From Planotetraspora mira (GTDB lineage Bacteria; Actinomycetota; Actinomycetes; Streptosporangiales; Streptosporangiaceae): DNA of 64,000 bases. A model generated the notes under the pieces. It searched no databases and was not told the origin of the DNA. It saw only the letters and a list, made by a program, of their open reading frames with translations. Position numbers and translations under genes: made by a program. The DNA lies in the NCBI RefSeq assembly GCF_016863275.1, contig NZ_BOOO01000022.1, positions 186,001-250,000 of the forward strand, read 5' to 3'. Of the stretch, positions 13,380-57,717 are shown piece after piece. The stretch's first letter is position 1; every line of letters starts with the position of its first letter.

Positions 13380-14270
13380 TCAGCGGACGCGGCCGACCAT
13401 CCTCGCGTACATCCGACCGGGGCTCGGGACCGACGACTGGTCGAGGAAGCCCGGCAACATGGGCAGGTCGACCGCGAAGGGCTGCAACCGCTGATAGAGC
13501 GTGTAGGCGTCGGAAGGCCGGTCGTCCGGATGCTTCTCCAGCAGTTCGGCGATCAGCCGGTCCAGCTCCGGCGGCACACCGGTGACGCGCGGCGGGCGCT
13601 CCTTGACCTGCTTGTCGAACACGGCGTACTCCGTGGGCCCGGTGAACAGCTGCCTTCCGGTGAGCATCTCGTGCAGGACGCAGCCGAGCGCGTAGAGGTC
13701 GCTCTTCTGGTCGGCCACGCCGCGCTCGATCTGCTCGGGCGACATGTACGCCGGAGTGCCCAGGATCTGGCCGACCCGGGTGAACTGGGCGGAGTCGCCC
13801 TCGCGGAGGATCGCGAGCCCGAAGTCGAGCACTTTGACGCTGCCGTCCGGGCAGAGCATGAGATTCGTCGGCTTGAGGTCGCGGTGACAGATGGACAGCG
13901 CGTGCGCCGCGGTGAGCACCGCGCATGCCTGGGCCGCGATCGCCGCCGCCCAGGGGACGGGGAGCGGGCCGTGCTCGCTGACGAGGTCGGCGACCGTCAC
14001 CCCCTCGATGAACTGCATGACCTGGAAGAGCCGCTGCTCGTAGGTCCCGAAGTCGTACAGCACCGGCGCACCGGGATGGTCGAGCCGGGCGAGGATCCGG
14101 GCCTCCCGGATGAAGCGGCGTTCCAGCTCGTCGTCGGGCCCGCCCGGCAGGCGGAGGAACTTGACCGCCACCCTCCGGTCGAGCCGCCGGTCGTGACCGC
14201 CGTAGACGGCTCCCATGCCGCCCTGACCCAGGGGCAGGTCGTCAAGCTCGTAACGGTCGCCGATGACCAT
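13380..14270 (-). CDS. Soluble Ser/Thr protein kinase of the methyltransferase-kinase module (copy 1)
   Basis: A 296-residue Hanks-type kinase: GQGGMGAVYGG (P-loop), AVKFL (Lys), HRDLKPTN (catalytic loop), DFG, GTPAYMSPEQ and [16 protein letters not shown]. It has no membrane segment or sensor domain; a short tail (PSPGRMYARMVGRV) ends it. The start chosen has GGAGG 5 nt upstream. It lies 41 bp downstream of the adenine methyltransferase gene in the same direction, and the same order recurs at 54142-57717 with a clearly related kinase (shared GPLPV-WAA-IAAQ and VKVLDFG segments). Targets are unknown; the methyltransferase is an obvious candidate (inference). A PP2C phosphatase is divergently encoded beyond the methyltransferase. 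Confidence 0.92.
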   Translation of the reverse strand: MVIGDRYELDDLPLGQGGMGAVYGGHDRRLDRRVAVKFLRLPGGPDDELERRFIREARILARLDHPGAPVLYDFGTYEQRLFQVMQFIEGVTVADLVSEHGPLPVPWAAAIAAQACAVLTAAHALSICHRDLKPTNLMLCPDGSVKVLDFGLAILREGDSAQFTRVGQILGTPAYMSPEQIERGVADQKSDLYALGCVLHEMLTGRQLFTGPTEYAVFDKQVKERPPRVTGVPPELDRLIAELLEKHPDDRPSDAYTLYQRLQPFAVDLPMLPGFLDQSSVPSPGRMYARMVGRVR

Positions 14271-14311
14271 GCACCCTCCAGTCGGCCTGTCCGGGGGCAA
14301 AGCTACACCTT

Positions 14312-16435
14312 TCAACTACCAGGTCGGAGATGACCCGCGGCGAGCCCCTCCACCCCCAGCCGCACGAGCGCCTCCCCCGCCGCGACCGCCTCCCGCAGAC
14401 CGTCCTCCAGGGCGAGAAGCTGCCGGAAGGCCTGGCCGTACCGGCTCTGCTCGGCGAGGGGCAGGCGCGGCACCCGCGCCCGTCGTGCGTCGACGCGGCT
14501 GGACCCGAGGTGCGGCCGCCCGGCGGTGGCGAACCTGAGGAACCCGGCGAGGAACTCCGGATCGATGCGCGTGCGATCCACCCGGTAGAGCGTGAGCTGG
14601 GGGCCCAGCACGGCTCCTGCGCCGGCGATCACCCGTGCCGTGAGGGCGGAGCCCACCACGTCGCCGTCGGCGATAGTCACCAGGCCGTCCTCCGGAGCGG
14701 CCCAGCCCGTAGGCGGCCCGCCGCCCGCCAGGTCGTCGGCCGTGAGCACAGGGAAGGCGCCCTCCCCGGAGCCGTCCGGGTCGGCCGCCTTCAACGTCGA
14801 GTGCCGTACGGTCACCAGCCCGGCCCTGACCAGCTCGGCGAGTGTCGTAGGCGGCGAGTCCCACCCGGCCGGGGCGTCGCCGGGCACATCCAGATCGCCC
14901 AGACCCTCGGTCACCGCGGCGACGAGCGCCTCCGCGACGTCTCTGAAACGGCCGCGTGCCGAGGGGAAGCCGCTCGCGTCGCCTCGCGAGGACAGGTGCC
15001 GCGCGGGGCTGAGGTCGACCTCGTCGTCGAGCAGGTCGACGATCCCGACCGCACGGCTCTCGCCCGGCGGCTCGGCCCCGGCCAGGTAGGCGTCCCAGGC
15101 GGGCTCCACGAGCGACAGGTCGTCGCCCGCCATCGTCAGCAGGATGGTCGCGGGTTGCCGCTCGCCGGGTTCGGGACGGCGCAGCAGCCACAGGTCGGGG
15201 CCGCCTGCCGCCAGGGAGAAGACGGCGCGCACGGCGCCGGCGCGCAACATGTTGGCCCGGATGCGCCTGCCCGAGCGGCGGCTCGCGGCGGCCGCGGGCA
15301 TCAGGACGGCCACCAGGCCGCCGGGCCGCACGTGGGCGAGGCAGTGCTGCACCCAGGCGAGCTCGGACTCACCGCGCGGCGGCATGCCGTACGTCCAGCG
15401 CGGATCGCCCACCAGGTCCTCGTGGCCCCACGCCCGCTCGTTGAACGGCGGATCGCAGACGACGGCGTCGGCGCCCCCCTCGGGGAAGCCGTCGTCCCTG
15501 AGGGAGTCCCCCGCGACGATCCGCGCACGCTCCCCGCGCAGCAGCAGCCGCAGCGTGGCGAGCAGCGCCACCGTCTCCCCCGCGTCCTGGCCCACAAGCT
15601 CTGTGACGCGCTGGGGCTCACGGGCCTCGTGAGTCTCCTGTGCGGCTTCGCCCGGTGCCATGGCGCCGGGGCCGGGCACCGTGGGATCCTGGCTCCGCGG
15701 CCGGGGTTCCTGGCCGGGCAGAGCGCGGTCCCCAGGCGCGACAGGCTCGTCCACCGGCTCACCGCCGGACGGCGTGGCGTCGCTCCGTCCCCGCCTCGCC
15801 CCCTTGACCGCGAGGAGAAGAGTGCCCATGCCGCAGGCCGGGTCGAGAACCGATCCCCCCTCGGAGCAGGCCAGCCGGGCCATCAGCTCCGCCACGTCCG
15901 CCCGTGTGACCGAGAGCCGGCGGCTGTGGGCCTCCACGTAGCGCTCGCAGAGGAGCTCGAAGGCCGTGGCGGGCCCATGCGCGGCGGCCAGTTCCGAGAG
16001 CGGGCCGATCAGCCCGGCGTCCAGGTGGCTCCGTCCTTCGGGTCCGATCGGCAGGTCGGGGGTCGCGGCGGCGACGGCGTCGGCCAGCCGTACGGGCAGG
16101 TCGGGACCCGCGGTGAGCCGCCGGAGGCCGTCGGGGTCCCGGAGCGTGTAGAGCAGGAACGCCCCCATGCGGCCGAGCAGGTCCCCCAGGTGCAGGTCGT
16201 CTGCCGACATCCTGAGCCGCTGCCATACCCTGTCGGCGACGGACATCTCGAATGTCTTGCCGTTACGCCTGAGCCAGGCCTCGACCTCCGGCAGGGAGAA
16301 CAGCGGGCTGGAGGTCGTCCCCCCCACGGGCTCGGGGAAGTCGTCGTAGCGGCGGCGCCAGTTGCTCACCGCAGCCCGCCCGACGTCGGCCATCCGCGCG
16401 ATGTCACCCGCGTTAACCGTCTCATCGAGGCTCAT
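14312..16435 (-). CDS. HTH-fused N6-adenine DNA methyltransferase with HsdS-like C-terminus (copy 1)
   Basis: A 707-residue protein. Residues about 8-60 are a helix-turn-helix (GDIARMADVGRAAVSNWRRR) with a following winged segment (SLPEVEAWLRR). A helical domain is followed by a type I HsdM-like catalytic core with LDPACGMGT (SAM motif I, about residue 195) and CDPPF (motif IV, about 327). A roughly 65-residue Pro/Gly/Glu-rich insert between them is absent from copy 2. The C-terminus resembles an HsdS half-subunit (LGPQLTLYRVD ... RRARVPRLPLAEQSRYGQAF). No restriction subunit is nearby. It is likely to methylate adenine in DNA at a site chosen by its own C-terminal domain; the HTH could also make it a regulator. 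Confidence 0.88.
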   Translation of the reverse strand: MSLDETVNAGDIARMADVGRAAVSNWRRRYDDFPEPVGGTTSSPLFSLPEVEAWLRRNGKTFEMSVADRVWQRLRMSADDLHLGDLLGRMGAFLLYTLRDPDGLRRLTAGPDLPVRLADAVAAATPDLPIGPEGRSHLDAGLIGPLSELAAAHGPATAFELLCERYVEAHSRRLSVTRADVAELMARLACSEGGSVLDPACGMGTLLLAVKGARRGRSDATPSGGEPVDEPVAPGDRALPGQEPRPRSQDPTVPGPGAMAPGEAAQETHEAREPQRVTELVGQDAGETVALLATLRLLLRGERARIVAGDSLRDDGFPEGGADAVVCDPPFNERAWGHEDLVGDPRWTYGMPPRGESELAWVQHCLAHVRPGGLVAVLMPAAAASRRSGRRIRANMLRAGAVRAVFSLAAGGPDLWLLRRPEPGERQPATILLTMAGDDLSLVEPAWDAYLAGAEPPGESRAVGIVDLLDDEVDLSPARHLSSRGDASGFPSARGRFRDVAEALVAAVTEGLGDLDVPGDAPAGWDSPPTTLAELVRAGLVTVRHSTLKAADPDGSGEGAFPVLTADDLAGGGPPTGWAAPEDGLVTIADGDVVGSALTARVIAGAGAVLGPQLTLYRVDRTRIDPEFLAGFLRFATAGRPHLGSSRVDARRARVPRLPLAEQSRYGQAFRQLLALEDGLREAVAAGEALVRLGVEGLAAGHLRPGS

Positions 16436-16491
16436 GCGGCCCAGAATATCTACGCTTGTGAAGTGATTCAACCAATGATTTACTCGAAACC

Positions 16492-17253
16492 ATGACGCAC
16501 AACCGCATTCGGTATGCCGCGGGATCGGACATCGGGCGGTCCCGGACGAAGAACGAGGACTCGGTGTACGCGAGCGAGCACCTGCTCGCCATCGCCGACG
16601 GCATGGGCGGGCACGGACACGGGGATGTCGCCAGCGCCGCGGCCATCGAGGCGCTGTCCGCGATCGACGGCGGCGCTCCACCCGAGGACCTCATCACCAC
16701 GCTGGAGAGCGGCGTGCGGGAAGCGGCCCGCAGGCTCAGCGAACTGGCCGAGCACGATCCCACGCTGGAGCGGATGGGAACCACGATCACCGCGATGTTG
16801 TGGGACGGCGAGAGCCGGTTCGCGGTGGCGCACGTCGGCGACTCCCGGGCGTACATGTTGCGGGACGGCGGTCTCTACCAGATCACCCGTGACCACACCC
16901 TGGTGCAGTCTCTGGTCGACGACGGGCACATGAGCCCCGACCAGGCCGCCAAGCATCCGAACCGGTCGCTGCTGTTGCGGGCGCTGGAGACGAGCGGGCT
17001 TGCCGACCCCGACCTGTCCCTGCGCGACGCGCATCCGGGAGACCGCTACCTGCTCTGTTCGGACGGGCTGACCGCCGTGCTGGAGCCGGAGACGCTTCAC
17101 CAGGTGCTGACCGCGATCGAGGAGCCCGCCGAGGCCGTCCGCCGCCTGATCGAGCTCGCCAACGAGGGGGGCGGGCCCGACAACATCACCTGCATCGTCG
17201 CCGACGTCGCCTTCGACAACCAGAACGGCGACGGCCCGCAGCCCACCGTGTGA
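16492..17253 (+). CDS. PP2C-family Ser/Thr phosphatase
   Basis: A 253-residue soluble phosphatase with SDIGRSRTKNEDS, ADGMGGHGHGD (metal), GTTITAML, VGDSRAYMLRDG, LLCSDGLTAVL and GGGPDNITCIVADV, so all metal-binding Asp motifs are intact. It removes phosphate from Ser/Thr. It is divergent from the methyltransferase-kinase pair with only 56 bp between the starts, so the three could form one regulatory unit with kinase and phosphatase acting on shared targets (inference). No Shine-Dalgarno is visible before the ATG, suggesting a leaderless transcript. Confidence 0.9.
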   Translation: MTHNRIRYAAGSDIGRSRTKNEDSVYASEHLLAIADGMGGHGHGDVASAAAIEALSAIDGGAPPEDLITTLESGVREAARRLSELAEHDPTLERMGTTITAMLWDGESRFAVAHVGDSRAYMLRDGGLYQITRDHTLVQSLVDDGHMSPDQAAKHPNRSLLLRALETSGLADPDLSLRDAHPGDRYLLCSDGLTAVLEPETLHQVLTAIEEPAEAVRRLIELANEGGGPDNITCIVADVAFDNQNGDGPQPTV

Positions 17254-17264
17254 GCGGCCCTGTG

Positions 17265-17320: not shown

Positions 17321-17511
17321 TGACGACCCGCGATGTACGGCCGGCCCCGGCGGCGGCCGTACGAGCGAGTGCACCCTTCGCCTGGCCCACCCGTGCAGTT
17401 TTGCCCCTATTTTGTCATTGATCCGTTACTTTCAGTAATCAATGCGGAATATCACCGCATTAAGGGATCTCGCCAATTCGGGGGCACGATCACCGGGCGA
17501 AGGGAGTACGC

Positions 17512-28325: not shown

Positions 28326-28463
28326 GGGGGCGACTCCTTCTGTGGCTTCCTGTGGCTTCGTCCGAAGATTCAGCCGACTCGTCCGCCGCTCCTGCTGCCG
28401 GTTCGCCGAGGGGTTATGGGGTGGGTCGACGGGCGGCGCGTCGGGCGAGCGGAGAACCCGGGC

Positions 28464-37393: not shown

Positions 37394-37586
37394 CGGTTAG
37401 ACAGGACCGATGTCAACACAGCTCACAAGGGGGGAGGCGACCTCGGCGGAAACGACTTCACGGCCTGCCGGACCGCACGCGAGACGACGCCCTACGCGAT
37501 GACCGCGCGCGACGCGTACGCGCACTCGGGGCGAAATTTCGCCCCATTCATAATTTCGGGCGGAATTATGTGCACGTCCTGAAGGA

Positions 37587-39453: not shown

Positions 39454-39480
39454 CCTGCGGCCCGGGCGGCTCGCCCGGGC

Positions 39481-39651
39481 ATGACCCGCCATTCGGCCCG
39501 CACGCTCAGGTCCACGCGCATGCCCAAGTCCACCCGCATGCCCGAGTCCACCCGCATGCCCGAGTCCACCCGCATGTTCAAGTCCACCGGCACGCACAGG
39601 TTCACCGCCAGGCACAGGTTCACCGGCACGCTCAGGGAGGCGTCGCGATGA
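39481..39651 (+). CDS. Small repetitive ORF overlapping the NRPS start
   Basis: A 56-codon frame with hexapeptide repeats STRMPK/E, then STGTHR and FTARHR. It is produced by the 18-bp tandem array. Its TGA overlaps the ATG of the NRPS gene (ATGA), and GGGAGG inside it would serve as the NRPS ribosome site. No Shine-Dalgarno precedes its own ATG; instead an 8-bp hairpin (39460-39467 with 39473-39480) touches it. It may be a coupling leader or only a by-product of the repeat. Confidence 0.35.
   Translation: MTRHSARTLRSTRMPKSTRMPESTRMPESTRMFKSTGTHRFTARHRFTGTLREASR
39493..39636 (+). repeat. Eight-unit 18-bp tandem repeat
   Basis: Units start at 39493, 39511, 39529, 39547, 39565, 39583, 39601 and 39619; the core copy is TCCACCCGCATGCCCGAG. 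The third and fourth units are identical and the outer ones drift. The 18-bp period is a multiple of three. It fills the gap between the carrier-protein gene and the first NRPS gene and ends 11 bp before the NRPS start. Confidence 0.95.
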
Positions 39652-45600: not shown

Positions 45601-45869
45601 TCCTGGTGGCCGAGGTCTGGGAGGAGGTCCTGCGCGTCGACAGGGTCGGCGTGCACGACGACTTCTTCGCCCTCGGCGGCCATTCCCTGCTCGCCGTCCA
45701 GGTCGCGGCCCGGCTTCGCGCCAGCGCGCAGGTGGACGTGCCCATCCGTGAGCTCTTCGCCCACCGCACGGTGGCCGCTCTGGCCGTACTGGTCGAGGAG
45801 CTTGTCATGCGAGAGCTGTCCGAGCTCAGCGACGACGAGGTCGCCCGGCTCCTGGAGACGGAGGCCTGA
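39648..45869 (+). CDS. Nonribosomal peptide synthetase, C-A-T-C-A-T
   Basis: A 2073-residue two-module synthetase. C1 (about 5-440, HHIVADG at 126) leads to A1 (460-930), T1 (DFFALGGHSLL, Ser991), C2 (1040-1460, HHIAGDG at 1166), A2 (1490-1950) and T2 (Ser2013). Reading the Stachelhaus positions by alignment to GrsA gives A1 D-I-L-Q-L-G-M-I-W, one change from the glycine code, and A2 D-T-E-D-I-G-T-I-I, which I do not recognise; its acidic residues hint at a basic side chain. Having a C domain first, it needs a donor, probably the free carrier protein. No epimerase or thioesterase is present. The stop overlaps the next gene by one base (TGATG). Confidence 0.95.
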   Translation: MTGLTLAQERLWILHRLNPDDASYNLPMMLRVRGALNAEALERALAVVLDRHEMLRCRFAEHGGTPVRVPTDPARVELAHCADIEEARAFAGEMAGRPFDLERGPMIRMALLTLAPEDHILVIVVHHIVADGWSLQVLRRDISDVYAAFEAGKPSPLAPLPMTYDDHVRRRHENTGDEASTAYWTSTLSGSQPLELPTDRPRPPVRSGRGDHIDFDMPADLLARLERVARAERCTLFMVLLTAFQVLLARHSGRQDICVGTPTSGRDLVEEEAMVGYFAQTLVLRGDLSGDPSFRELLRATRGRVLGALAHADVPLERIVTELRVERDPSRTPLFQAMFNFLREEHDGPGLGDTRIEPFDHPFAQSRTDISLDIVQKPSGTAAMLTFDDALFTRASAERMHRHLLTLLADIAARPGARIGDLELIDDEERADLLGRWNDTAVLSAPASVLKRFDAQVARTPHAVAVACEGRELTYAELDARSHQIAALLSGLDQHGPDQHGPGALGGLVAVCLRRSPDMIAALFAVWRAGAAYLPIDPEHPRNRIALVLDDSRATAVLTDRTLAGLFPEDRVLLIEDVAGPEDAGEDTGTVHDTGAGEDAWEPADLERAAYVLYTSGSTGRPKGVAVPHRALARFLDAMAEILGEQEGRTWLALTSLSFDISALEIFLPLTRGGRVEITPDHLLRDGPALTRLIDATGVTNVQATPSGWRMLAEAGLRDTRLDALVGGEALPLPLAGDLRGRVRRLVNMYGPTETTIWSSFWEVPEHPEEVTIGGPIAGTRLHVLDERRMLAPVGVPGELCIAGDGVAIGYLGRPSLTAERFVPDPYGPPGSRLYRTGDRVRRLPDGRVVFLGRDDGQVKLRGHRVELGEIEAVLEAHPGVRAAAVVVRNDALVAFVVGDAPDLAAHAAAALPSYMVPAVVVDMDALPLTPNGKVDRLALPSAVAVRPAAAPSRTPPRTWAERRVAAVFAEVLGVEEVGVEDDFFALGGHSLLAAKVVARMDAVPIRELFDHPTVAGFAARLADGVGPAPLHRRPEGAVVPLSRAQERLWFLQRLDPGDASYNMYNVWRLRGALDAEALQGALRDLAARHETLRTGYPEADGRPVTAVSPEAGPDIEHLTVASAAEAGRLVAERTNAPFDLAAGPPFRVSLLRLAEDDHVVCLVLHHIAGDGWSLNILREELDLLYTARRDGVAAGLAEPPIQYGDVVHGLSGQDDGPEIAYWRERLADPPTLDLPTDRPRPAVPAHRGAFHGMRLAAEPVAALEQVAGEHRSTLFMVLLAAYQVLLAGHTGKHDLLVGSTFAGRDRVELERMVGYFANTLVLRGDLSGDPSFDALLARTRDTVLGAMAHQRLPFEELAAETGREHGPHLDAMFRTMLILHTQDETETAGTFADLDLEFFDSGYRQAKFDLMLDAWRDGEGLTISFGYDSDLFDPGTISRLAERFAVLCEAVAADHRRPLSRLPLLTPADEALLAEFEAQETGVADGPMVPGLIGAATEATPDAVALSCGDESVTYAQLDRRVGALAARLRAEGVGPESVVGVCLDRSADAVVSLLAVWRAGGAYLPIDPDLPAGRIDWLLSDSGATLVITRHEGLSGDIPVLHPGEAGDGPPHDGVLPAPDDAAYVIYTSGSTGLPKGVVVEHCALAARVAWMRADYGLGPGDRVVQFASLGFDTHAEEVYPALAAGATVELLPDGALSLPELLAGPRGRDVTVLDLPTAYWHRLVDQIDDMTWPDRLRLVILGGEQVHAAAVARWREHFGDRVRLVNTYGPTEATIIATAADLGAADAVPSDGRPPIGVPVGGARAAVVDEHGRRVPPGAAGELLLGGAGLARGYLGRPDLTAERFVTGPDGGRAYRTGDLVRWRGDGRLQFLGRADDQLKVRGFRIEPGEIEGRLAALPDVREAAVTAHDGALVAYVTGTADTDALRGHLAETLPPYMVPDVWVPLDELPMTPNGKVDRRALAPPDKPAERPFVAPETDAEFLVAEVWEEVLRVDRVGVHDDFFALGGHSLLAVQVAARLRASAQVDVPIRELFAHRTVAALAVLVEELVMRELSELSDDEVARLLETEA

Positions 45870-48800
45870 TGACTGTCGAGGATTCCCGCAGGGCCCTCGC
45901 GGCGCGACGACTGCGCCGCAGGGCGGCCGCGCCGACCGTGCCGGCGCGCCCGCCCGGGGAGGAGCCGCCGCTGTCGTTCGCCCAGGAGCGACTGTGGTTC
46001 ATGGAGCAGTACACCCCCGGCAGCCGTGCCTACATCATCCCGGTCGCCCGGCGGTTCCGGCACGAACTCGACGCCGAACGCCTGCGGGAGGCGCTGCGTC
46101 AGGTGGTCGAGCGGCACGAGACGCTGCGGACGCGCTTCCCCGCGACCGCCGACGGCGCTCCCGCCCTCGAGGTCGTCCCTTCCGGGAGCCCCGAACTCGC
46201 CGTCGAGCTCACCCTGGCCGAGGTCGACGACGAGGAGGCCGCACGCGCGCTGGTGGACGAGTTGCAGGCACGCCCGTTCGACCTGGCCGCCGGCCCGCCG
46301 ATCCGCGCCCTCCTCGTACGGCTCGCGCCCGACGACCACGTCCTGGGACTCGCCGTCCACCACATCGCGGCGGACGGCTGGTCGGTGAACATCCTCCTGG
46401 GCGAGCTCATAACGCTGTACGAGGGCAGGGCCGTGCCCGACCTCACGGTCCAGTACGGCGACTACGCCCTGTGGCAGCGCGGCCTGCCGGCGACGGGCCT
46501 CGACCACTGGCGCGAGCGCCTGGCCGGCGTGGAGGCGCTCGCGCTGCCCACCGACCGGCCGCGCCCTCCGGAGGTGACGTACGGCGGGGCGAGTCACCCG
46601 GTGCGGATCGACACCGACCTGGCCCAGGGGCTGCGCAGACTCGGCGAGGACCACGGCGCCTCCCTCTACATGGTGCTGCTGGCCGGGTTCTCCGCGCTGC
46701 TCGGGAGATACGCCGGTCAGGACGACGTGACCGTCGGATCCCCCGTCGCGGGCAGACCGGCCGCCGAGCTGGAGACGCTCGTCGGCTGCTTCGTGAACAT
46801 GCTGGCGATGCGGTCGGACCTGTCCGGCGACCCGTCGTTCGCCGAGCTCCTGCTGCGCGTGCGGGAGACCGCGCTCGACGCCTTCACCCACCAGGACGTG
46901 CCCTTCGAGCAGCTCGTCTCGGCGCTCAACGTGACCAGGGACGTGTCGCGGTCGCCGCTCTTCCAGGTCATCCTCGCCATGCAGAACTACGACTCGGCGG
47001 GCGCGGACGCCGAGGGCTTCGACCTCAAGTCATGGGCGACGCGCTTCGACCTGGAGCTCTATTTCGCCGACGACGGCAGCGAGCTGTCCGGCTCCGTCAT
47101 CTACAACACCGACCTGTTCGACGCGGCGACCGTCGAGCGGCTCTGCCGGCACCTGGTCGCGCTGCTGCGCGCGGCGGTGGACGACCCGGCCAGGCCACTG
47201 TCGGCCCTGGACCTCCTCGACGCGGGCGAGCGGGCGGCCCTGGATTCGTGGAACGACACGAAGGTGGACCACGGCCCGCCCGCCACGCTGCTCGAACTGG
47301 TCGAGGCGCAGGTCGCCCGCACTCCGGAGGCGCCCGCGGTGACGTTCGAGGGCGTCACCCTCTCCTACGCCGAGATCGACGAGCGGGCGTCACGCGTCGC
47401 GGCGGCCCTGCGGGCGCACGGCGTCACCCCGGGCTCCCGGGTCGGCGTGTGCGCCGAACGCTCGCCCGAGCTCGTCGCGGGCCTGCTCGGCGTGCTGAAG
47501 GCCGGCGGCGCCTACGTTCCCCTCGACCCCGAGTATCCGGCCGACCGGCTCGCCTTCATGGCGACCGACGGCGCCCTGTCCGCCGTCCTCACCTTCGGCG
47601 CGTCCGACGGTCTCACCGCCCTCGCCTCCACCCTCGAGGCCGGCCTGACCAGCTGCCCGCTGCTGCCCCTCGACAACGTGGGCGAGCCGTCCTCGGCGGA
47701 GCCCGCGTGGCGAGCCGGCCCCCTCGACGCCGCGTACGTGATCTACACCTCCGGGTCGACCGGCAGGCCCAAGGGTGTGCCGAACACGCACAGGGGCATC
47801 GTCAACCGGTTGCGGTGGATGCAGGACCGGTTCGGGTTGACTTCCGGCGACGTGGTGCTGCAGAAGACACCGGCGGGCTTCGACGTCTCCGTGTGGGAGT
47901 TCTTCTGGCCCCTGATGGTGGGCGCGCGGCTCGTCCTCGCCCGCCCCGGCGGGCACAAGGACGCGGCCTACCTGCGCGACCTGATCGTCGCCGAGGGCGT
48001 CACCACGCTGCACTTCGTGCCGTCCATGCTGGCGATGTTCCTGGCCGAGGAGGGCGTCGCCGCCTGCGGCACGCTCGAACGGGTCATCTGCTCCGGCGAG
48101 GAGCTGCCCGCCGACCTCGCCCGCCGCTGCGTCGAGACGCTGCCCGCCGAGCTGCACAACCTGTACGGCCCCACCGAGGCCGCCGTCGACGTCTCCGCGT
48201 GGCACTGCACGGCGGAGGCGCTGCGCGACCTGGCCAGGGTGCCGATCGGCGCACCCGTCGCCAACACCACGCTCCACGTGCTCGGGCTGGGCATGCGGCG
48301 GGTCCCCGTCGGCATGCCGGGCGAGCTGCACATCGGCGGCGCGCAGGTGTCGCTCGGCTACCTCGGCAGGCCCGGCCTCACTGCGGAGCGGTTCGTCCCC
48401 GACCCCTTCGGCGAGCCGGGAGCCCGGCTGTACCGCACGGGCGACCAGGCTCGCTGGCGCCCGGACGGCACGCTGGAGTTCCTCGGCCGGCTGGACACCC
48501 AGGTGAAGCTGCGCGGCCTGCGCATCGAGCTCGGCGAGATCGAGACGGTGCTGCGCGAACAGCCGGGTGTCGCCGACGCGGCGGTCATCGTGCGGGAGGA
48601 CCGGCCGGGAGACCAGCGGCTGGTCGCCTACGTCGTCGGCACGACACCGGACAGGGCGGTCCTGAAGCAGGTGCTGCCCGACTACATGGTCCCCGCCGCT
48701 TTCGTCGAGCTCGATCTGCTGCCGCTGTCCCCCAACGGCAAGCTCGACAGGAGCGCGCTGCCCGCGCCCGCCCGGCAGGGGCCCACGGCCTCCGAACCCC

Positions 48801-51319
48801 CGTCCACCCCGACCGAGCTGGCGGTGGCGGCGATCTGGACGGAGATCCTCGATCTCGACCAGGTCGGGGCCGACGACGACTTCTTCGACCTGGGCGGCCA
48901 CTCCCTGCTGGCCACGCAGCTCGTCACGCGGCTGCGCCGTATGGCAGCCGAGACGGGTGGCGGCGGGGTGAGCGTCATGGACGTCTTCAAGAACCCCACG
49001 GTCCGCGAGCTCGCCGCACTCATCGACACTCCCGCCGACCAGCGGGCGCCCCGTGGGCTGCTGCACGAGCTCACGCCCCGTCGTACGGCCGAGCTGAGCT
49101 TCGTCTGCGTGCCGTACGGCGGGGGAAGCGCGGTGGTCTACCAGCCGCTCGCCGACGCCCTCCCGGAGCGGTACTCCCTCTGGGCGGTGGCGATCCCCGG
49201 CCATGACGTCGGGCTCGACGAGGAGCATCTGCCGTTCGAGGAGCTGGCCGCCCGCTGCGTGGCCGAGATCCAGGAGAAGGTGCGCGGCCCGATCGCGCTG
49301 TACGGCCACTGCGGCGTGGGCTCGGCACTGATCATCGACATCGCCCGGCGGCTGGAGCAGGCCGGGCGGACGGTCGAGATCGTCTACATCGGCGCGATGT
49401 TCCCGTTCGCCCGCCCCAAGGGACGCGTCGCCTCCATCCTGTCCAAGATCGCCAGGATGGAGGCGCTGCGCGGAGACCGGGGGTACGCGAACTGGCTCAC
49501 CGGTCTGGGCGTCGACCTGAGCGACCTGGATCCCGCGCAGGCCCGCTCGATCATCCAGAACATGCGCGAGGACTCCACGGCGGCCGAGGACTACTACACG
49601 CGCCTGTTCGACGAGGGCACCGATCGCCTGCGCGCCCCGATCGTCACCATCGCCGGCGGCAAGGACCCGACGACGGACTACTACCAGGAGCGCTACCGAG
49701 AGTGGCACTTCCTGACCGACACCTCCGCCGTGGTGGTGCTGGAGGAGGCCGGCCACTTCTTCCTGAAGTACCGCGCGGCCGAGCTCGCCGAGATCGTCAC
49801 GCTGCCGCTGCTCACCGAGCAGCCGCCCCCGCGGGAGACCTGGCGGCTGCACGAGGTGTCCCGCGGGAACGCCATCGAGGGCACCGTCTCCCACGGCCAC
49901 TCCACCGGACCAGAGCCCAGCATGCGCAGGTTCGCCGCCGTGGCCGGCGGGCAGCTCGTGTCGATCACCGGCTCGGCTCTCACCGAGTTCGCCATCCCGA
50001 TCTGGATCTACCTGACCACCGGGTCCGTCGCGCGCTTCGCGCTGTTCACCGTGCTGGGGCTGGTCCCCGGCCTGGTGGTCTCGCCGCTCGCCGGAGCGAT
50101 CGTCGACCGGTACGACCGCCGGAAGGTGATGCTCGGGGGCGACATCGCGGCCGGCGGCGTCCAACTCATGCTCGGGCTCCTGGCCTGGACCGGCAACCTG
50201 CAGGTCTGGCATCTGTACCCGTCGATCGTGTTCCTGTCGCTCGCGCTGACGTTCCAGCGGCTGGCCTACGGCTCGGCCATCCCGCAACTGGTGCCCAAGC
50301 GCTATCTGGGGCACGCGACGGGCATCGGCCAACTCGGCGGCGGGCTCGCCCAGCTCCTCACCCCGCTGCTCGCTGTCGGCCTGCTGTCGGCCATCGGCCT
50401 CGGCGGCATCCTCGCCCTCGACGTCGCCAGCTACGCGGTCGCCATCACGCTCATCGTGTTCGTACGGTTCCCCACCTCGATGGCCTGGCGCCGCAAGGAG
50501 TCGCTCACCGCCGAGATCGCGAACGGCTTCCGCTACGTCTGGGGCAACCGCGACTTCCGCAAGATGTTGTCGTTCTTCGCGATCCTCAACCTCCCGCTCT
50601 CCCCCCTGTTCCTGATGATCTCGCCGCTGGTCCTGTCGTTCGCCACGCTCAGCGAGGTCGGCACGGTCTCCTTCCTGTCCGGACTGGGAGTCACGATCGG
50701 CGGGCTGGCGATGTCGATGTGGGGAGGACCGCGCCATCTCCGGATGCGCGGCGTGCTGCTGTCGACGCTCGTCCTTGCCGCCTTCTGCTTCGTCACGGGC
50801 CTGCGGGCGGAGCTGTGGGTGGTCGCCGCGGGCGCCTTCGGCATGGCGCTGTGGCTCACGTTGCTCAACGGCATCTACACCACGATCGTCCAGGTCAAGG
50901 TGCCGCAGCGGTTGCACGGCCGGGTCTTCGCCCTGAACACGATGATCGCCTGGTCCACCCTGCCCGTCGGCTTCGGTCTCATCGCGCCGTACGGCACGGA
51001 CCTGTTCGAGCCCCTGATGGCGCCGGGAGGCGCGCTCGCGCCCACGGTCGGCGCGGTCATCGGGACGGGTGAGGGGCGCGGCATCGGGTTCATGTATCTG
51101 CTGTTCGCCCTGCTCATGGCGGTGATCGCACTGGTGGCGCTGCGCTGGCTGGCCGGATTCGACGACCGGGTGCCCGACGCCGTCGCCGACGACCTCATCG
51201 GCCTGGAGAGCGTCAGCGCCGCGAGCACCGGCAAGGACACCGGCTCCGGCGCCGCCGACGGCGTCCGCCGCCCCTCCGACGCCTCACTCGTGAGCGTCCG
51301 ATCTCGAGGAGAGAGATGA
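45869..51319 (+). CDS. NRPS-exporter fusion: C-A-T-TE-MFS
   Basis: An 1816-residue protein in one uninterrupted frame. C (30-440, HHIAADG at 164), A (470-965), T (DFFDLGGHSLL, Ser1012) and a thioesterase (1060-1300) are followed after a short linker by a full MFS exporter from about 1352 (MRRFAAVAGGQ) with motif A DRYDRRKVM, like EntS/MefA-type drug exporters. The A code D-V-W-H-I-S-L-V-D is a serine code. The TE nucleophile position is Cys1148 (GHCGVGS), with later GGKDP Asp and AGHFF His. No ribosome site precedes Met1352, so a separate exporter gene is unlikely. The design would tether release of the peptide to its export. Confidence 0.92.
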   Translation: MTVEDSRRALAARRLRRRAAAPTVPARPPGEEPPLSFAQERLWFMEQYTPGSRAYIIPVARRFRHELDAERLREALRQVVERHETLRTRFPATADGAPALEVVPSGSPELAVELTLAEVDDEEAARALVDELQARPFDLAAGPPIRALLVRLAPDDHVLGLAVHHIAADGWSVNILLGELITLYEGRAVPDLTVQYGDYALWQRGLPATGLDHWRERLAGVEALALPTDRPRPPEVTYGGASHPVRIDTDLAQGLRRLGEDHGASLYMVLLAGFSALLGRYAGQDDVTVGSPVAGRPAAELETLVGCFVNMLAMRSDLSGDPSFAELLLRVRETALDAFTHQDVPFEQLVSALNVTRDVSRSPLFQVILAMQNYDSAGADAEGFDLKSWATRFDLELYFADDGSELSGSVIYNTDLFDAATVERLCRHLVALLRAAVDDPARPLSALDLLDAGERAALDSWNDTKVDHGPPATLLELVEAQVARTPEAPAVTFEGVTLSYAEIDERASRVAAALRAHGVTPGSRVGVCAERSPELVAGLLGVLKAGGAYVPLDPEYPADRLAFMATDGALSAVLTFGASDGLTALASTLEAGLTSCPLLPLDNVGEPSSAEPAWRAGPLDAAYVIYTSGSTGRPKGVPNTHRGIVNRLRWMQDRFGLTSGDVVLQKTPAGFDVSVWEFFWPLMVGARLVLARPGGHKDAAYLRDLIVAEGVTTLHFVPSMLAMFLAEEGVAACGTLERVICSGEELPADLARRCVETLPAELHNLYGPTEAAVDVSAWHCTAEALRDLARVPIGAPVANTTLHVLGLGMRRVPVGMPGELHIGGAQVSLGYLGRPGLTAERFVPDPFGEPGARLYRTGDQARWRPDGTLEFLGRLDTQVKLRGLRIELGEIETVLREQPGVADAAVIVREDRPGDQRLVAYVVGTTPDRAVLKQVLPDYMVPAAFVELDLLPLSPNGKLDRSALPAPARQGPTASEPPSTPTELAVAAIWTEILDLDQVGADDDFFDLGGHSLLATQLVTRLRRMAAETGGGGVSVMDVFKNPTVRELAALIDTPADQRAPRGLLHELTPRRTAELSFVCVPYGGGSAVVYQPLADALPERYSLWAVAIPGHDVGLDEEHLPFEELAARCVAEIQEKVRGPIALYGHCGVGSALIIDIARRLEQAGRTVEIVYIGAMFPFARPKGRVASILSKIARMEALRGDRGYANWLTGLGVDLSDLDPAQARSIIQNMREDSTAAEDYYTRLFDEGTDRLRAPIVTIAGGKDPTTDYYQERYREWHFLTDTSAVVVLEEAGHFFLKYRAAELAEIVTLPLLTEQPPPRETWRLHEVSRGNAIEGTVSHGHSTGPEPSMRRFAAVAGGQLVSITGSALTEFAIPIWIYLTTGSVARFALFTVLGLVPGLVVSPLAGAIVDRYDRRKVMLGGDIAAGGVQLMLGLLAWTGNLQVWHLYPSIVFLSLALTFQRLAYGSAIPQLVPKRYLGHATGIGQLGGGLAQLLTPLLAVGLLSAIGLGGILALDVASYAVAITLIVFVRFPTSMAWRRKESLTAEIANGFRYVWGNRDFRKMLSFFAILNLPLSPLFLMISPLVLSFATLSEVGTVSFLSGLGVTIGGLAMSMWGGPRHLRMRGVLLSTLVLAAFCFVTGLRAELWVVAAGAFGMALWLTLLNGIYTTIVQVKVPQRLHGRVFALNTMIAWSTLPVGFGLIAPYGTDLFEPLMAPGGALAPTVGAVIGTGEGRGIGFMYLLFALLMAVIALVALRWLAGFDDRVPDAVADDLIGLESVSAASTGKDTGSGAADGVRRPSDASLVSVRSRGER

Positions 51320-51756
51320 ACCATCGCGTCGTCGTCAACCGCGACGGCCAGTATTCGATCTGGCCGTCGGAGACGGATCTGCCCGCCGGGTGGGCGGCCG
51401 AGGGGCCCGCCGGCTCGCGGCAGGAGTGCCTGGAGCGGATCGACACGATCTGGACCGACATGCGGCCCTACCGGAGCCGCCTGCGGGAATCGCTGGCGGC
51501 CGCTCTGGAGAAGGCGTCGGACGGACAGCTGACGGCAGCCGAGGTGCTGAGAGCGGACACGTCGTTCGTCGCGATGGGCGTGACGTCGCTCACCATGGTG
51601 CGCCTGATCGACGTGATCGAGACGGAGCTCGACGTCATCGTGGACATGGACCACGACCCGCGCGTCCTGGAGGACCTCGGCTCCCTGGTCGACCACATCG
51701 CCGGGCAACGGCTGTCGTCCGGCACGAGCGACGGCGGCCCCGCGTCCGGTTTCTGA
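51316..51756 (+). CDS. MbtH-like protein fused to a carrier domain
   Basis: A 146-residue protein. Residues 1-52 are an MbtH-like protein (VVNRDGQYSIWPSE, LPAGWAAEG, ECLERIDTIWTDMRP), the small chaperone of adenylation domains. From residue 57 a carrier-protein domain follows: LRADTSFVAMGVTSLTMVRLIDVIE, where the Ser of GVTSL is the likely phosphopantetheine site, then DVIVDMDHDPRVLEDLGSLVDHI. Normal MbtH proteins are about 70 residues and have no such domain. The ATG overlaps the synthetase stop (ATGA). It may activate the A domains and carry an intermediate. Confidence 0.88.
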   Translation: MNHRVVVNRDGQYSIWPSETDLPAGWAAEGPAGSRQECLERIDTIWTDMRPYRSRLRESLAAALEKASDGQLTAAEVLRADTSFVAMGVTSLTMVRLIDVIETELDVIVDMDHDPRVLEDLGSLVDHIAGQRLSSGTSDGGPASGF

Positions 51757-51761
51757 TCGGC

Positions 51762-53207: not shown

Positions 53208-53930
53208 TCACTGGGCGGATTCGACGCCCTCCACGATGGCCTTGGTCATCTTCACCCCTGCCGCGCCCTTGTCCTTGCCGCTGGAGTTGTACAGCGTGGT
53301 CACCACGGCGTTGCCCACCCGCGCGGCGACGAGCGTGGTGCCGCCCTGCCAGGCCGGGGAGGTCTCGACCGCCTTGATCGCCTCGTCGCCCATGCCGGGG
53401 ACGGCGGTCCTAACGATCTTGACCTTGGCCGTCATCCCATCCGATTTGTCGGTGAAGGAGGCACATGAGCCGAACGCCTTCCGGAGCGCCGACATCACCT
53501 TCTTGGCGTTGTCGCCGTGGAAGGTGTCGATCTCCTGCGCGAACTGCCCGCTCTGGCCGGGGCCCGTGTAGTCGTTCTGCGCGAAGCCGGCGCCCTCGAT
53601 CCCGGAGGCCCGGATCCATGCGGTCTGCAAGAGGATCCCGCACACCTTGCTCCGCGGCACGGTGCTGGTCGAGTCCTCCGTGAGAATGTCGCCGGAGTTG
53701 CGCGCGCCGTCGGAGTTGAGCTTGAAGCCCTTCGGCATCGCGTCGGCGGCGAGCAGCATCGCGTTCAGCTCGGTCCCCGTCAGGACTTTCTCGACCGGCG
53801 CCTTGGCCGGGGGCGTGGCCGGGTTCTCGCTGCCGGCGGTGCCCCCGCAACCGCCTGCAGCGAGAACGACCAGGCCGGCGGCGGCGAGGAGCGCGCCCAT
53901 CCGGAGGGGGTTGTCGGCGAAGGTCTTCAT
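53208..53930 (-). CDS. Secreted lipoprotein, sensor-domain-like
   Basis: A 240-residue lipoprotein: signal helix MGALLAAAGLVVLAAGGC with lipobox (LAAGGC), a Thr/Pro/Ala linker, then a domain with one Cys pair (KVCGIL near 105, GSCASF near 160) and PGMGDEAIKAV ... VAARVGNAVVTTLYNSSG. This resembles the extracellular domain of mycobacterial PknH-type kinases, a sensor fold. GGAGA lies 9 nt before the chosen ATG; the longer frame lacks support. Ligand unknown. It is divergent from the second methyltransferase. Confidence 0.75.
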   Translation of the reverse strand: MKTFADNPLRMGALLAAAGLVVLAAGGCGGTAGSENPATPPAKAPVEKVLTGTELNAMLLAADAMPKGFKLNSDGARNSGDILTEDSTSTVPRSKVCGILLQTAWIRASGIEGAGFAQNDYTGPGQSGQFAQEIDTFHGDNAKKVMSALRKAFGSCASFTDKSDGMTAKVKIVRTAVPGMGDEAIKAVETSPAWQGGTTLVAARVGNAVVTTLYNSSGKDKGAAGVKMTKAIVEGVESAQ

Positions 53931-54141
53931 TTCGGGTTCTCCAGACGTACGACCGCCGTTGACGAGATCAACCGGGCGCTTTATTCGTTGCTGTGATTGC
54001 CTAGCCAAGCAGATGTGCATTGAATTTACAACTATCCCGCTTGTTCCTTCAATGTGCGCTTACGGGTAGGCTTCCCGACATCCGACGCGAATTGAGGACC
54101 GGATACAGCGGGACGAGCGCCGGAGCGGAGAGGGGCCGAGC

Positions 54142-56043
54142 GTGCAGGACGAAGCGACGGTGAGCGCCACGGACATCGCCCGGCTCGCAGGAGTCGGCCG
54201 GGCGGCGGTGAGCAACTGGCGTCGCAGGCATCCCGACTTCCCGCAGCCCGTGGGCGGTACGCCGATCAGTCCTGTCTTCGCCCTGCCCGAGGTGGAGACG
54301 TGGCTTCGCGACCAGGGCAAGCTCCGCGAGCTTCCGGTCGAGGAGTGGGCCTGGCAACAACTGCGCGCGGAAGCCGGCGACGATCTGCAACTGGGCGGGG
54401 TGCTCGCCGCCGCGGGAGACGCGCTGGTGAAGGAACATGCCGGTGAGACGGTTCCCGGCCCGTCCGCGGCACCGCCCCCGAGGAGCGGCGCGGCCGAGGC
54501 GGTGGCCGACCTGGCGGCCGAGTGGGGGGCCTCCCCGGCGTTCGAGTTCCTCCTGGGCCGCTACTGGGAGGCGCAGGGCCGTCGTGCCTCAGCCACTCCC
54601 CCGGAGGTCGCCGCGGTGATGGCGGCGCTCGCCGGTGACGCCGCGACCGTCCTCGATCCGGCCTGCGGGACCGGCGAACTACTCGTGGCCGCCGCCGAGA
54701 ACGGCGCCGCGCGTCGGTTGCTCGGGCAGGAGGCCGACTCCGGCACCACTGCCCTGGCCACCGTACGGCTGGCCCTGCGGCACGACGACGCGGCCATCCG
54801 GACGGGGGACTCCCTGCGTGCCGACGCCTTCCCGGACGTGCTGGCCGACGCGGTGTTGTGCGACCCGCCCTTCCACGTGCGGACCTGGGGACACGAGGAA
54901 CTGACCGCGGACCCGCGCTGGGAGTACGGCCTGCCTCCCCGCCTGGAGCCCGAACTGGCCTGGGTGCAGCACGCGCTGGCCCACGTGGCCCCCGGCGGAC
55001 GGGCCGTGGTCCTGATGCCCGCGGTGGCGGCGGGCCGCAGATCGGGCCGCAGGATCCGGGCCCAACTGCTGCGCACGGGGGCGCTGCGCGCCGTCATCGC
55101 GCTCTCCGCGGCCCAGCACGTGTGGGTGCTGCAGCGCCCGGAGGGCGGCACACCGGCCACCCTCCTCATGATCGACGACGCCGACCAGGAGACGATCGTC
55201 TCGACCTGGGAGACCTACCGGAACGACCCGGAGCACGACGAGCCGGGAGTCAGCCGGGCCGTGCCGATCATCGACCTCCTCGACGAGGACGTGGACCTCA
55301 CCCCGGCCCCTCACCTGTCCGCCACCGGATCGGAACGGACGGCGGAGCGGTTCCTGGAGACCCACGACCGGCTGACCGCGCTGCTCGAGAGGCTCGGCGG
55401 GCTGCTGCCCGCCGTACGTCCGTCGGTGGATCAGGAGGAGTCGCCGTCCGTCCTGATCGCCGAACTCGCCCGGATCGGATATCTCACGATCCACCAGGCG
55501 CCGTTGCGCAGGGACCAGGAAGAGGTCGCCGGCGACGGGCAACCGCTGCTCACCGTCGAGGACGTCATCGAGGGACGGGCCGCCTCGGCGCGTGCGACGC
55601 CCGCGGACGGACGCTGGATCGCGACCCGTGCCGGTGACATCGTGATCGCGGCGGCCGCCCACCGCTTCGCGGCCCGGGTCGTGGAGGGCGACGGCGCCCT
55701 GCTCGGTCCGCAACTGTCCTTGCTGCGGGTAGACCCGGAACGGCTCGACCCGTACTTCCTCGCCGGAGTGCTGGGCAGTTCCGCCAACGCGCGCACGTCG
55801 ACCGTGCAGACGACGGGGACCACCGGCCGGGTGGACATCCGGCGCGCGCGGATGCCCCGGCTGCCGATCGAAGAGCAGCGCCGCTACGGCGTCGCGTTCC
55901 GGCGGATGGCGGAGTTCGAGTCCGCCCTGCGGTCCAGCGTCGCCCTCGGGGAGGAGATGGCCCGGCTCCTGGCCGACGGAACGGCCGACGGAACGCTCGT
56001 CCCTGCTCCGGGTGAGGTCCCCGTCCACTGGCCGTCGATCTGA
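54142..56043 (+). CDS. HTH-fused N6-adenine DNA methyltransferase (copy 2)
   Basis: A 633-residue paralogue of the protein at 14312-16435. The N-terminal helix-turn-helix (TDIARLAGVGRAAVSNWRRR) and FALPEVETWL segment are nearly the same as in copy 1. Catalytic motifs are LDPACGTGE (SAM, about 172) and CDPPF (about 240). The insert of copy 1 is absent. The C-terminus again resembles an HsdS half (LLGPQLSLLRVD ... RRARMPRLPIEEQRRYGVAFRRM). The GTG start was chosen as GAGAGGGG lies just upstream. A Ser/Thr kinase gene follows 216 bp later in the same direction. No restriction gene is present. Confidence 0.88.
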   Translation: MQDEATVSATDIARLAGVGRAAVSNWRRRHPDFPQPVGGTPISPVFALPEVETWLRDQGKLRELPVEEWAWQQLRAEAGDDLQLGGVLAAAGDALVKEHAGETVPGPSAAPPPRSGAAEAVADLAAEWGASPAFEFLLGRYWEAQGRRASATPPEVAAVMAALAGDAATVLDPACGTGELLVAAAENGAARRLLGQEADSGTTALATVRLALRHDDAAIRTGDSLRADAFPDVLADAVLCDPPFHVRTWGHEELTADPRWEYGLPPRLEPELAWVQHALAHVAPGGRAVVLMPAVAAGRRSGRRIRAQLLRTGALRAVIALSAAQHVWVLQRPEGGTPATLLMIDDADQETIVSTWETYRNDPEHDEPGVSRAVPIIDLLDEDVDLTPAPHLSATGSERTAERFLETHDRLTALLERLGGLLPAVRPSVDQEESPSVLIAELARIGYLTIHQAPLRRDQEEVAGDGQPLLTVEDVIEGRAASARATPADGRWIATRAGDIVIAAAAHRFAARVVEGDGALLGPQLSLLRVDPERLDPYFLAGVLGSSANARTSTVQTTGTTGRVDIRRARMPRLPIEEQRRYGVAFRRMAEFESALRSSVALGEEMARLLADGTADGTLVPAPGEVPVHWPSI

Positions 56044-56259
56044 CGGTCCGGCGCCCACCCGGCCCACGGGTGAACCGCGTCGCGTGAGCGGTTCGCGCCC
56101 GTTCGCCGGCCGGGTCTCGACGGCTGGGTGAACGGTGAGTGACGCCACCGCGGAGCGCGATACCGTCTGTGCAGGCTTCGGGCGATTCGCCCCGCCGCGT
56201 GCCTCGGCGGCCGCGACGAAGCCGGGCTGGACGACGCCTCTGCGGTGAGGAGACGGAAC

Positions 56260-57717
56260 GTGGGGCACCACACGGTTCTGGCCGGACGCTACGCACTGCT
56301 GACGCCGATCGGCCGCGGCGGCATGGGCCAGGTCTGGGAAGGGCAGGACCAGCGGCTCGGACGCCGGGTCGCGGTCAAGATCCTCACCCGTGAAGTCCTC
56401 GCGGACCGCGCCGAGCCGAACGACCTGGTGCGCAGGTTCGCCCGCGAGGCGGCCGTCATGGCGGGTCTGCAACACCCCGGCGTCCCCGCCGTGTACGACG
56501 CGGGGACCTACGACGGCGGGCTCTTCCTCGTCCTGGAGTTGATCGACGGCTGCACGCTCGGCGACCTCATCGCGGAGCAGGGGCCGCTCCCGGTCGCCTG
56601 GGCGGCCGGGATCGCGGCCCAGATGGCGGCGGTGCTCACCTCGGCCCACGAACGCGGGTTCGTCCACAGGGACGTGAAGCCGCAGAACGTCATGCTCACC
56701 CGGGACGGAACCGTCAAGGTCCTCGACTTCGGCGTCGCCGCCGTGCTCGACCAGGCCGGGATGTTACGGATCACGAGCACGGGAGAGACCATCGGCACTC
56801 TCGCGTACATGGCGCCCGAGCAGTTGCACAGCCGGGACGCCACCCCGCGCACCGACCTCTACGCCCTGGGCTGCGTCCTGTACGAGATGCTCGCCGGCGC
56901 GCCGATGTTCGAGGCGACCTCGCCTGGCGCCCTGATCCACAAGCATCTCTCGCAGGTCCCCGCGCCCCTGCTCCGCGAGGACGTGCACCCCGAGTTGGAG
57001 ACGCTGGTCATGCAGTTGCTGGAGAAGGAACCGGCGCAGCGGCCCGCGGACGCCGAGGAGACCTACGGCCGGCTCCTGCCGTACGTGGCGGAACCGGGGC
57101 CGCTCGGCGACGTCGATCCGGTCGCGAACGGGCAGAGCGGCATGCACCTCTACTCGCGCGTGCTCGTCCGGCTCTCCGGGGCGGCGGGCGCTCCGCACGC
57201 CGGGAGTGTGCACGACGCGGGTTCATCGGGCTCGGGATACGCCGGTCGCCCGTGGCCCGGGCCGGACGAAGTCCCTTCGGCTCCCCGGGCGCGGAGAGCC
57301 GCCAGGACGACGCGCGATCCGTACGGCACGAGCTCCCGCTGGTACGGGGCCGAACCGTCGGTCCCCCGCGGCGCCCGCTGGACGTTCACGCACAGCCTGT
57401 GGATCGCCCCGACCCTGCTGTTCGGCGCGGGCGCCTGGATGTCCTTCGCGTACATCGCGGCCCGGCACCGGCGGTTGTCGTGGCTGGTCGTCACGGCCGT
57501 CTATCTCGTGTTGCCGGTCACCGCGTTCGCGCTGATCGACACCGGACCGGAGCCGACGAACCCGCTCGAGAACGACCCTCTTCAGACCACGATCGGCGTG
57601 GTCATGATCCTCCTGCTGTGGCCCGCCGGATTCATCCACGCCCTCTGGGTCAACGTGACCGTCCGATTGCCGCTGCGCGGTCGCATGGAGGATGAGGCGT
57701 CACGGCGCCGCATGTGA
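56260..57717 (+). CDS. Ser/Thr protein kinase with C-terminal membrane segment (copy 2)
   Basis: A 485-residue kinase: [37 protein letters not shown] and [15 protein letters not shown] within residues 1-270. It is closely related to the kinase at 13380-14270, including a shared tail motif ([15 protein letters not shown] versus PSPGRMYARMVGRV). Unlike copy 1 it continues with a Pro/Arg/Ser-rich linker and three membrane helices ([56 protein letters not shown]). The GTG start has GGAG 7 nt upstream. It probably works with the preceding methyltransferase gene. Confidence 0.9.

Follow-up and report, generated by a model that had tools for sequence, protein, structure and literature searches.

Organisation of the two gene pairs

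The window analysed here, a stretch of 64,000 nucleotides from Planotetraspora mira (contig NZ_BOOO01000022.1, positions 186,001 to 250,000), carries two gene pairs in each of which a gene for a protein resembling N6-adenine methylases, called M below, is followed on the same strand by a gene for a Ser/Thr kinase, called K. The two pairs and a phosphatase gene diverging from the first of them had been proposed from the letters alone (the original prediction), and open reading frames are found for all five genes. In copy 1, M1 (14312-16435, minus strand, 707 amino acids) precedes K1 (13380-14270, minus strand, 296 amino acids, devoid of a C-terminal extension), while the gene of a PP2C-type phosphatase (P0005, Pfam PP2C, 16492-17253, plus strand) lies beyond a gap of 56 bp on the other side of M1, a context conserved among relatives. 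In copy 2, M2 (54142-56043, plus strand, 633 amino acids) precedes K2 (56260-57717, plus strand, 485 amino acids; the longest open reading frame begins at 56245), whose C-terminal extension looks membrane-spanning by eye. Pfam N6_Mtase matches M1 at 3.5e-26 and M2 at 6.9e-32, and Pkinase matches both kinases, which are related as had been thought: K1 and K2 are 49% identical over the kinase domain.

BLASTP aligns M1 with M2 in two segments, at 46-48% identity. The motifs DPACG and CDPPF which had been read in them are present in both, the DPPF of motif IV occupying residues 328-331 of M1 (15443-15454, minus strand; residue numbers from the BLASTP alignment of M1 with M2) and residues 241-244 of M2 (54862-54873, plus strand; numbering from alignments). 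A profile built on 37 relatives matches, among solved structures, HsdM-type chains over positions 143-460 or so (best 7vru_A, 1.8e-48) and then the HsdS chains 5ybb_D and 3okg_A over approximately 499-634. This means that the architecture proposed for M, with a helix-turn-helix (HTH), an HsdM-like core and an HsdS-like tail in one chain, holds. The window proteins do not reach the NCBIfam cut-off of the hsdM equivalog. Their N-termini, where the HTH is fused to the methylase, are matched by the PADLOC model mad1 (1.5e-5 for M1 and 1.8e-4 for M2). To call the two HTH regions nearly identical was right in that they are shared and related (VGRAAVSNWRRR is an identical stretch) but a little strong in wording, as they agree at 41 of 55 positions. 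Over 86 M proteins the HTH is the best conserved domain, with a mean pairwise identity of 0.71 against 0.60 for the core, 0.46 for the tail and 0.34 for the linker regions; the mean for the partner kinase domain is 0.50. We also noted that residues 212-278 or so of M1 form a proline- and charge-rich insertion after motif I, found neither in M2 nor in M3, the third copy described below.

In the tree of M proteins, M1 and M2 fall into separate clades, and both have close relatives in further genera. Hence, a recent duplication was rejected, and the M copies are old paralogues. The pairs are related, as the word "duplicated" had implied, but the event is not recent, and the genome, of 9.03 Mb in 100 contigs, contains a third copy. 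This copy lies on contig C19 (locus L006). Upstream of M3, whose motif IV reads CSPPF, one finds a different kinase on the opposite strand and then K3, which is on the same strand as M3 at a distance of about 1.7 kb; downstream of M3 and on its strand come genes for a HerA-like ATPase, SbcD/Mre11, SbcC/Rad50 and a putatively NurA-like protein, a label read from position and sequence, without a Pfam or PADLOC match. The HerA-like protein has no Pfam match and is matched by the PADLOC models mad8 (1.4e-8) and HerA (4e-6). When the window pairs are compared with relatives, the kinase of copy 1 is better kept than its M (for instance 0.89 versus 0.67 against L067), while kinase and M of copy 2 are closer in conservation (0.98 versus 0.96 against L007; 0.67 versus 0.56 against L011).

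A partner kinase commonly accompanies M

In its 9.03 Mb the genome of P. mira shows 42 matches to Pkinase with E of at most 1e-10. We built a kinase tree with FastTree from 35 rows taken from the 30 best of these 42 matches (some rows being one domain met in two overlapping loci) and 56 rows adjacent to M genes; it has 91 rows, thinned from 181 at 80% identity, and the program issued a long-branch warning. A clade of 44 rows, the partner clade, unites 41 of the 56 M-adjacent rows with K1, K2 and K3, which are its sole members among the 35 rows from this genome. Each of the three M genes thus has a kinase of the partner clade close by (K1 and K2 immediately downstream, K3 upstream), in a genome with 42 Pkinase matches, so that the pairing is above chance. 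The identities of M and K are also correlated, with r 0.83 over 86 dereplicated pairs, the largest value in 500 permutations being 0.15; shared genome ancestry contributes to this correlation. Wherever a PP2C gene lies just upstream of M, a kinase gene follows M on the same strand after 10-188 bp (33 of 33 loci, which are related and partly overlapping). The original prediction took methylase and kinase to be a functional unit, and these three results bear it out: on sequence grounds the M-K pair is a real unit. Many partner kinases have a C-terminal extension which resembles TPR repeats by eye. In one locus (L078) the kinase match lies inside an open frame of 2097 amino acids whose end is nuclease-like by eye.

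Relatives were collected in two samples. The even sample was drawn from 296 genomes spread evenly over the class Actinomycetes, with at most four candidates scored per genome; 107 places were fetched with 108 M genes, rows from the P. mira genome and short partial matches having been left out and two pieces in G123 merged. The second sample holds the best 80 of at least 565 relatives (81 M genes) and, being made of best matches, is biased to M2. Together with the window and L006 this gives 192 M genes, which are not independent since the samples overlap (for instance L041/L119 and L069/L123, whose contigs agree in length). The family occurs at E 1e-60 or better in 70 of the 296 genomes.

Pairing is common, not universal. 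A kinase gene on the same strand within 1.5 kb downstream of M is found for 47 of the 108 genes of the even sample, any kinase within 9 kb for 65 and a partner-type kinase within 9 kb for 57; the corresponding numbers among the 81 genes of the best-80 sample are 64, 70 and 66. Relatives lacking a kinase neighbour had been named beforehand as evidence that would speak against the pairing, and this is partly the case: 43 of 108 genes in the even sample (and 11 of 81 in the best-80 sample) have no kinase within 9 kb. Judging from these relatives, M can work alone. At least one locus of this kinase-less group, L118, ends with its contig just after M, inside a frame beginning like a kinase.

The surroundings of the 192 M genes are diverse. 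PP2C lies within 400 bp upstream in 33 (divergent in 32; on the M strand in L079), type I restriction genes are found in 20, DrmA, DrmB or DrmC in 20, a UvrD helicase only in 18, and the HerA set in one; DrmD or DrmMI occurs without DrmA/B/C or type I genes in 15, and further with type I genes in one and with UvrD in another. The remaining 83 have none of the listed neighbours, and include Streptomyces loci, in which the kinase starts further downstream. The labels DrmA, DrmB, DrmC, DrmD, DrmMI, HsdR and UvrD rest on a PADLOC or Pfam match of one representative each and on blastp elsewhere; the HsdM reference was picked by reading its translation. Over the 296 genomes, 11 of 59 DrmA places (at most three candidates scored per genome) lie within 10 kb of M against 0.19 expected, and 21 of 97 HSDR_N places against 0.24 expected, where the expectation assumes uniform placement in a 7.5-Mb genome and partial matches count as M places. 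The pair therefore recurs across Actinomycetes alone, with PP2C, or inside DISARM (DrmA-DrmB-DrmC) and type I restriction loci, far above chance. The statement that there is no restriction subunit stands for the window copies but not for the family. Recent spread by plasmids or phages was rejected: at 1e-20 the matches comprise 8 plasmid records, each covering less than 80% of M2, and no record from a phage.

An inverted repeat at the promoter of M

The word TGTGAA occurs in 66 of 128 dereplicated M upstreams, whereas 17 are expected from 1443 control upstreams. Such enriched words led us to an expectation-maximization (EM) motif search, in which six seeds taken from them converged on one motif, GTTGACtnnGTTCACA, best written as the 17-bp inverted repeat TGTKnAC-N3-GTnMACA. 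On the M upstreams random seeds gave a best log-likelihood of 693 (12 starts); three sets of 128 other upstreams reached 190, 226 and 219, and shuffled ones 57 and 53 (8 starts each). Over the whole loci (3.81 Mb, partly overlapping) there are 175 sites scoring at least 15, of which 120 lie within 350 bp upstream of M, and shuffled sequence gives 14. A site of at least 13 stands upstream of 118 of 188 M genes and of 41 of 1740 other genes, the frequency at M being partly circular as the motif was trained there. Outside the training set, and with regions shared with an M upstream excluded from the other gene classes, such a site is found before HerA in 1 of 1 (copy 3), DrmD in 3 of 15 and DrmA in 7 of 18, six of these 7 scoring identically (20.6) and probably representing one lineage; other kinases have one in 4 of 22 cases. 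The consensus of the site varies with the class of the HTH helix (GRAAVS, TRATVS, SRTTVS, KPTAVS, TRAAVS), a variation in which phylogeny may have a share. This is what would be expected if M bound the site.

Four sites of at least 11 are found in the window; for sites of at least 15, the rate in shuffled sequence predicts about 0.24 chance occurrences over 64 kb. One, TGTGAAGTGATTCAACC, lies between M1 and the PP2C gene (16457-16473, score 15.6). The second, TGTGCATTGAATTTACA, stands 111 bp before M2 (54014-54030, score 16.9), and the third, CGTTGACGAGATCAACC, before a divergent gene (53957-53973, score 14.5 bits). This divergent gene (53208-54020, minus strand, start likely near 53930) is lipoprotein-like by eye, and its position suggests a link with the module: it is possibly a co-regulated neighbour of copy 2. 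In copy 3 the promoters of M3, K3 and HerA carry sites of 18.8, 14.8 and 19.9, and the K3 site is shared with a secreted-looking DUF4352 gene (L006:12220-12948); ten other loci, which cluster with L047, likewise have a secreted-looking protein encoded divergently from M. The fourth window site, at 37411 (37411-37427), is a strong match (16.0) not near M, about 340 bp before a large secreted-looking gene on the minus strand, and may be due to chance.

Motif IV is altered in many relatives

Motif I is mostly retained among relatives, as DPACGxG. Amino-methylases are known to have N, D or S at the start of motif IV, and other residues are not expected to work. In the 192 relatives the first residue is distributed as follows: N 46, D 59, S 8, H 53, A 10, V 5, G 4, E 3, T 2, I 1 and Y 1; in other words, N, D or S stands there in 113 and something else in 79, and some rows with N or D are changed at the following residues too (for instance NPQF, NLPF, DPPA). 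In a tree of 84 M rows this residue requires at least 13 changes, and the rows with H are 15 from Streptomyces, 5 from Micromonospora, 1 from Dactylosporangium and 5 others. All 15 named Streptomyces loci of the best-80 sample combine H with a partner-type kinase downstream. Type I loci have N in 14 of 20, 13 of these being NPPF or NPPY. One locus (L048) holds two M genes on the same strand about 3.5 kb apart, of the HPPF and NPPF types.

Because 79 of 192 starts are other than N, D or S, methylation seems unlikely as the function common to the family. The window copies, with their DPPF, may possibly have some methylase activity. In EcoKI HsdM, which is related, the change of NPPF to DPPF is reportedly fatal to activity.

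A proposed methylase-derived switch

We propose that M is an autoregulating, methylase-derived DNA-binding switch, the state of which would be set by the kinase (and the PP2C), and which in relatives would govern defence cargo; we give this reading a probability of about 0.6. The N-terminal HTH of M would bind the 17-bp inverted repeat at its own promoter and thereby control the M-K operon together with the divergent neighbour (the PP2C gene in copy 1, the lipoprotein-like gene in copy 2); in relatives it would also control whatever DNA-processing or defence genes are attached. The HsdM/HsdS-like part retains an S-adenosylmethionine (SAM) motif and a region for target recognition, and probably serves to sense SAM or how target DNA is methylated. 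Catalysis looks lost in many relatives, while some activity may persist in the window copies. The dedicated kinase probably phosphorylates M and so alters its DNA binding, and in copy 1 the PP2C would reverse this. The gene unit, the partner-kinase clade, the promoter motif and the change of motif IV in many relatives are what the sequences themselves support; we infer the binding of M itself to the motif, its role as a repressor and not an activator, the action of K on M, and the nature of the signal. The original prediction had seen phosphorylation-controlled methylation here. Its methylase-kinase unit stands, but methylation as the general output is doubtful in view of the altered motif IV and of the promoter motif, which points to a transcriptional role of M, and a regulatory role of M is better supported than methylation as an output. 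The finding is real, and larger than had been seen at first, with a third copy and with relatives in defence loci.

A number of observations weigh against this proposal. The window copies retain DPACG in SAM motif I and a DPPF which fits [N/D/S]PP[F/Y/W], and the PP2C loci keep D at motif IV in 32 of 33, which suggests a constraint on catalysis or on base contact. Besides the partial circularity mentioned above, 70 of 188 M upstreams are without a site of at least 13, and sites of that score stand directly before no more than 1 of 107 partner kinase genes and 3 of 23 HsdM genes. Among the M genes of DrmA/B/C loci, 17 of 20 are without a site of at least 8 just upstream; six of these 17 loci have a site of 20.6 lying 6.2-7.0 kb upstream of M, before the DrmA frame, and L197 has one of 23.3 at 585 bp upstream of M, while others of these loci have none that strong. 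Several further M copies (for instance L041, L117 and L119-L121) are also without a site of at least 8 just upstream. Part of the motif is similar to TTGACA, the -35 box, and TGTGA-N7-TCACA comes close to TGTGA-N6-TCACA, the site of the CRP family. A loose form of the pattern has 47 matches in the P. mira genome against 40 for the reversed control, and a large genome-wide regulon was rejected on this account; strong matches (19.1-19.7) are found away from M genes in three loci of this genome (L241, L230, L235). As to the kinase, 15 of the 56 M-adjacent rows, including that of the kinase located between M3 and K3, are not in the partner clade, and there are the relatives, counted above, which have no kinase in reach.

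Three other explanations were weighed against the proposed switch. M1 and M2 might be active solitary N6-adenine methylases with built-in specificity, serving as epigenetic regulators switched by K and PP2C. The N6_Mtase core, DPACG and DPPF of both window copies and the HsdS-like tail speak for this, as do the D of the PP2C loci and the N of most type I loci; we nonetheless regard it as unlikely, since the start of motif IV is neither N, D nor S in 79 of 192 relatives, 53 of them having H, and since the named Streptomyces loci have H yet keep the partner-type kinase. It might also be thought that each pair defends against phages on its own, in the manner of Pgl/BREX-2 or MADS, with a kinase that senses infection and activates M. 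Pgl does couple the kinase PglW to the methylase PglX, according to PMC4365076; the PADLOC models mad1, mad2 and mad6 match M and K of the window, mad8 matches the HerA-like protein of copy 3, and relatives are found in DISARM and type I loci. Next to the window copies, however, we saw no defence cargo, the NCBIfam cut-offs for MADS and PglW are far from being reached, the lone PglZ-family match is partial and on another contig, the arrangement PP2C-M-K recurs without such cargo, and the plasmid and phage records are as scarce as reported above, so that we hold this explanation to be improbable.

The repeat, finally, could belong to another regulator, for example of the CRP family, with M as one target among others and M and K in some other role. 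This would account for the similarity to TGTGA-N6-TCACA and for the matches away from M genes. The spacing is off by one from that of a CRP-family site, the sites are enriched at M promoters (118 of 188, other genes 41 of 1740), and the motif varies with the HTH class of the linked M, though relatedness may have a share in that; we therefore think this explanation improbable. With the proposed switch, a wider picture can be sketched, which we put forward tentatively and hold to be rather doubtful: a widespread actinobacterial module made of M and its own kinase, sometimes with PP2C, would have been plugged into unrelated systems (DISARM, type I restriction, HerA-Mre11-Rad50-NurA), a retired methylase reading SAM or target methylation and phosphorylation switching the operon. 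How bacteria silence costly defence until it is needed is an open question for most systems. If the picture is true, a single dedicated switch with kinase input is common to many DISARM and type I loci of actinobacteria, and its operator sequences allow it to be tested directly; a DNA methylase would also have become a regulator repeatedly, without losing its SAM motif or its region for target recognition.

Comparison with known systems

The nearest precedent is offered by the M.SsoII-type methyltransferases, whose N-terminal region regulates transcription in their own restriction-modification system, as PMC3978073 describes. They resemble M in having an N-terminal regulatory region fused to a DNA methylase, as is the HTH of M, and the motif at the promoter of M may be an operator of the kind that such an autoregulator would have. 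They differ in being cytosine-5 enzymes for which the opening of the PMC3978073 abstract mentions no partner kinase; M has an HsdM-type core with an HsdS-like tail, and its motif IV is often changed.

Pgl/BREX type 2 had already been named for comparison. It brings together a methylase (PglX) and a protein kinase (PglW) whose activity is needed for phage resistance, as stated in PMC4365076, and this is a precedent for the control of a methylase by a kinase. The analogy holds, membership does not: K1 and K2 score 48.6 and 71.5 bits with the PglW model against a cut-off of 990, and no PglZ match lies beside the copies, the only one in the genome being partial (29.9 bits for a cut-off of 25, profile positions 87-175 of 179, contig C4). 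Stand-alone membership in Pgl/BREX-2 was rejected on these grounds. The word DISARM is absent from a survey of BREX (PMC12839542), in which a passage on kinases concerns PglW and DndF.

The likeness to MADS lies in the PADLOC models mad1 (HTH), mad2 (methylase; 3.4e-17 and 1.2e-20 with the window M proteins) and mad6 (kinase), and in mad8 for the HerA-like protein of copy 3, the sole copy with such a candidate. The NCBIfam models give 18.7 and 21.7 bits for MAD2 with the window M proteins (cut-off 720) and 129.5 and 145.5 bits for MAD6 with the window kinases (cut-off 460). Here the HTH is fused to the methylase, which sets the module apart from MADS. DISARM resembles the present case in that relatives of M and K lie inside DrmA-DrmB-DrmC operons, but the window copies have no adjoining Drm match, and DrmA has no match in this genome at 1e-40 (3 of 9 candidates scored). 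With type I restriction-modification M shares the HsdM-like core and HsdS-like tail, and relatives directly precede HsdM and HsdR genes; M differs by its extra HTH and its partner kinase, no HsdR match lies beside the window copies, and HSDR_N has no match in this genome at 1e-10. A published description of the M-K module was not found in the literature searched, subscription papers being largely outside its reach.

Neighbouring genes

Some further genes near the pairs may be mentioned. A UvrD-type helicase gene recurs near the kinase in L028 (14784-16889) and in 13 other loci, and is on the M strand in 3 of these 14. A gene of the DUF2293 family (12256-13371) faces K1 in the window, and the same is seen in six relatives (L067, L136, L141, L143, L150, L223). 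Another Ser/Thr kinase gene of the window (28416-30161, locus L116) falls outside the partner clade. The interval between the two pairs (39181-51756) holds genes which by eye look like those of nonribosomal peptide synthesis.

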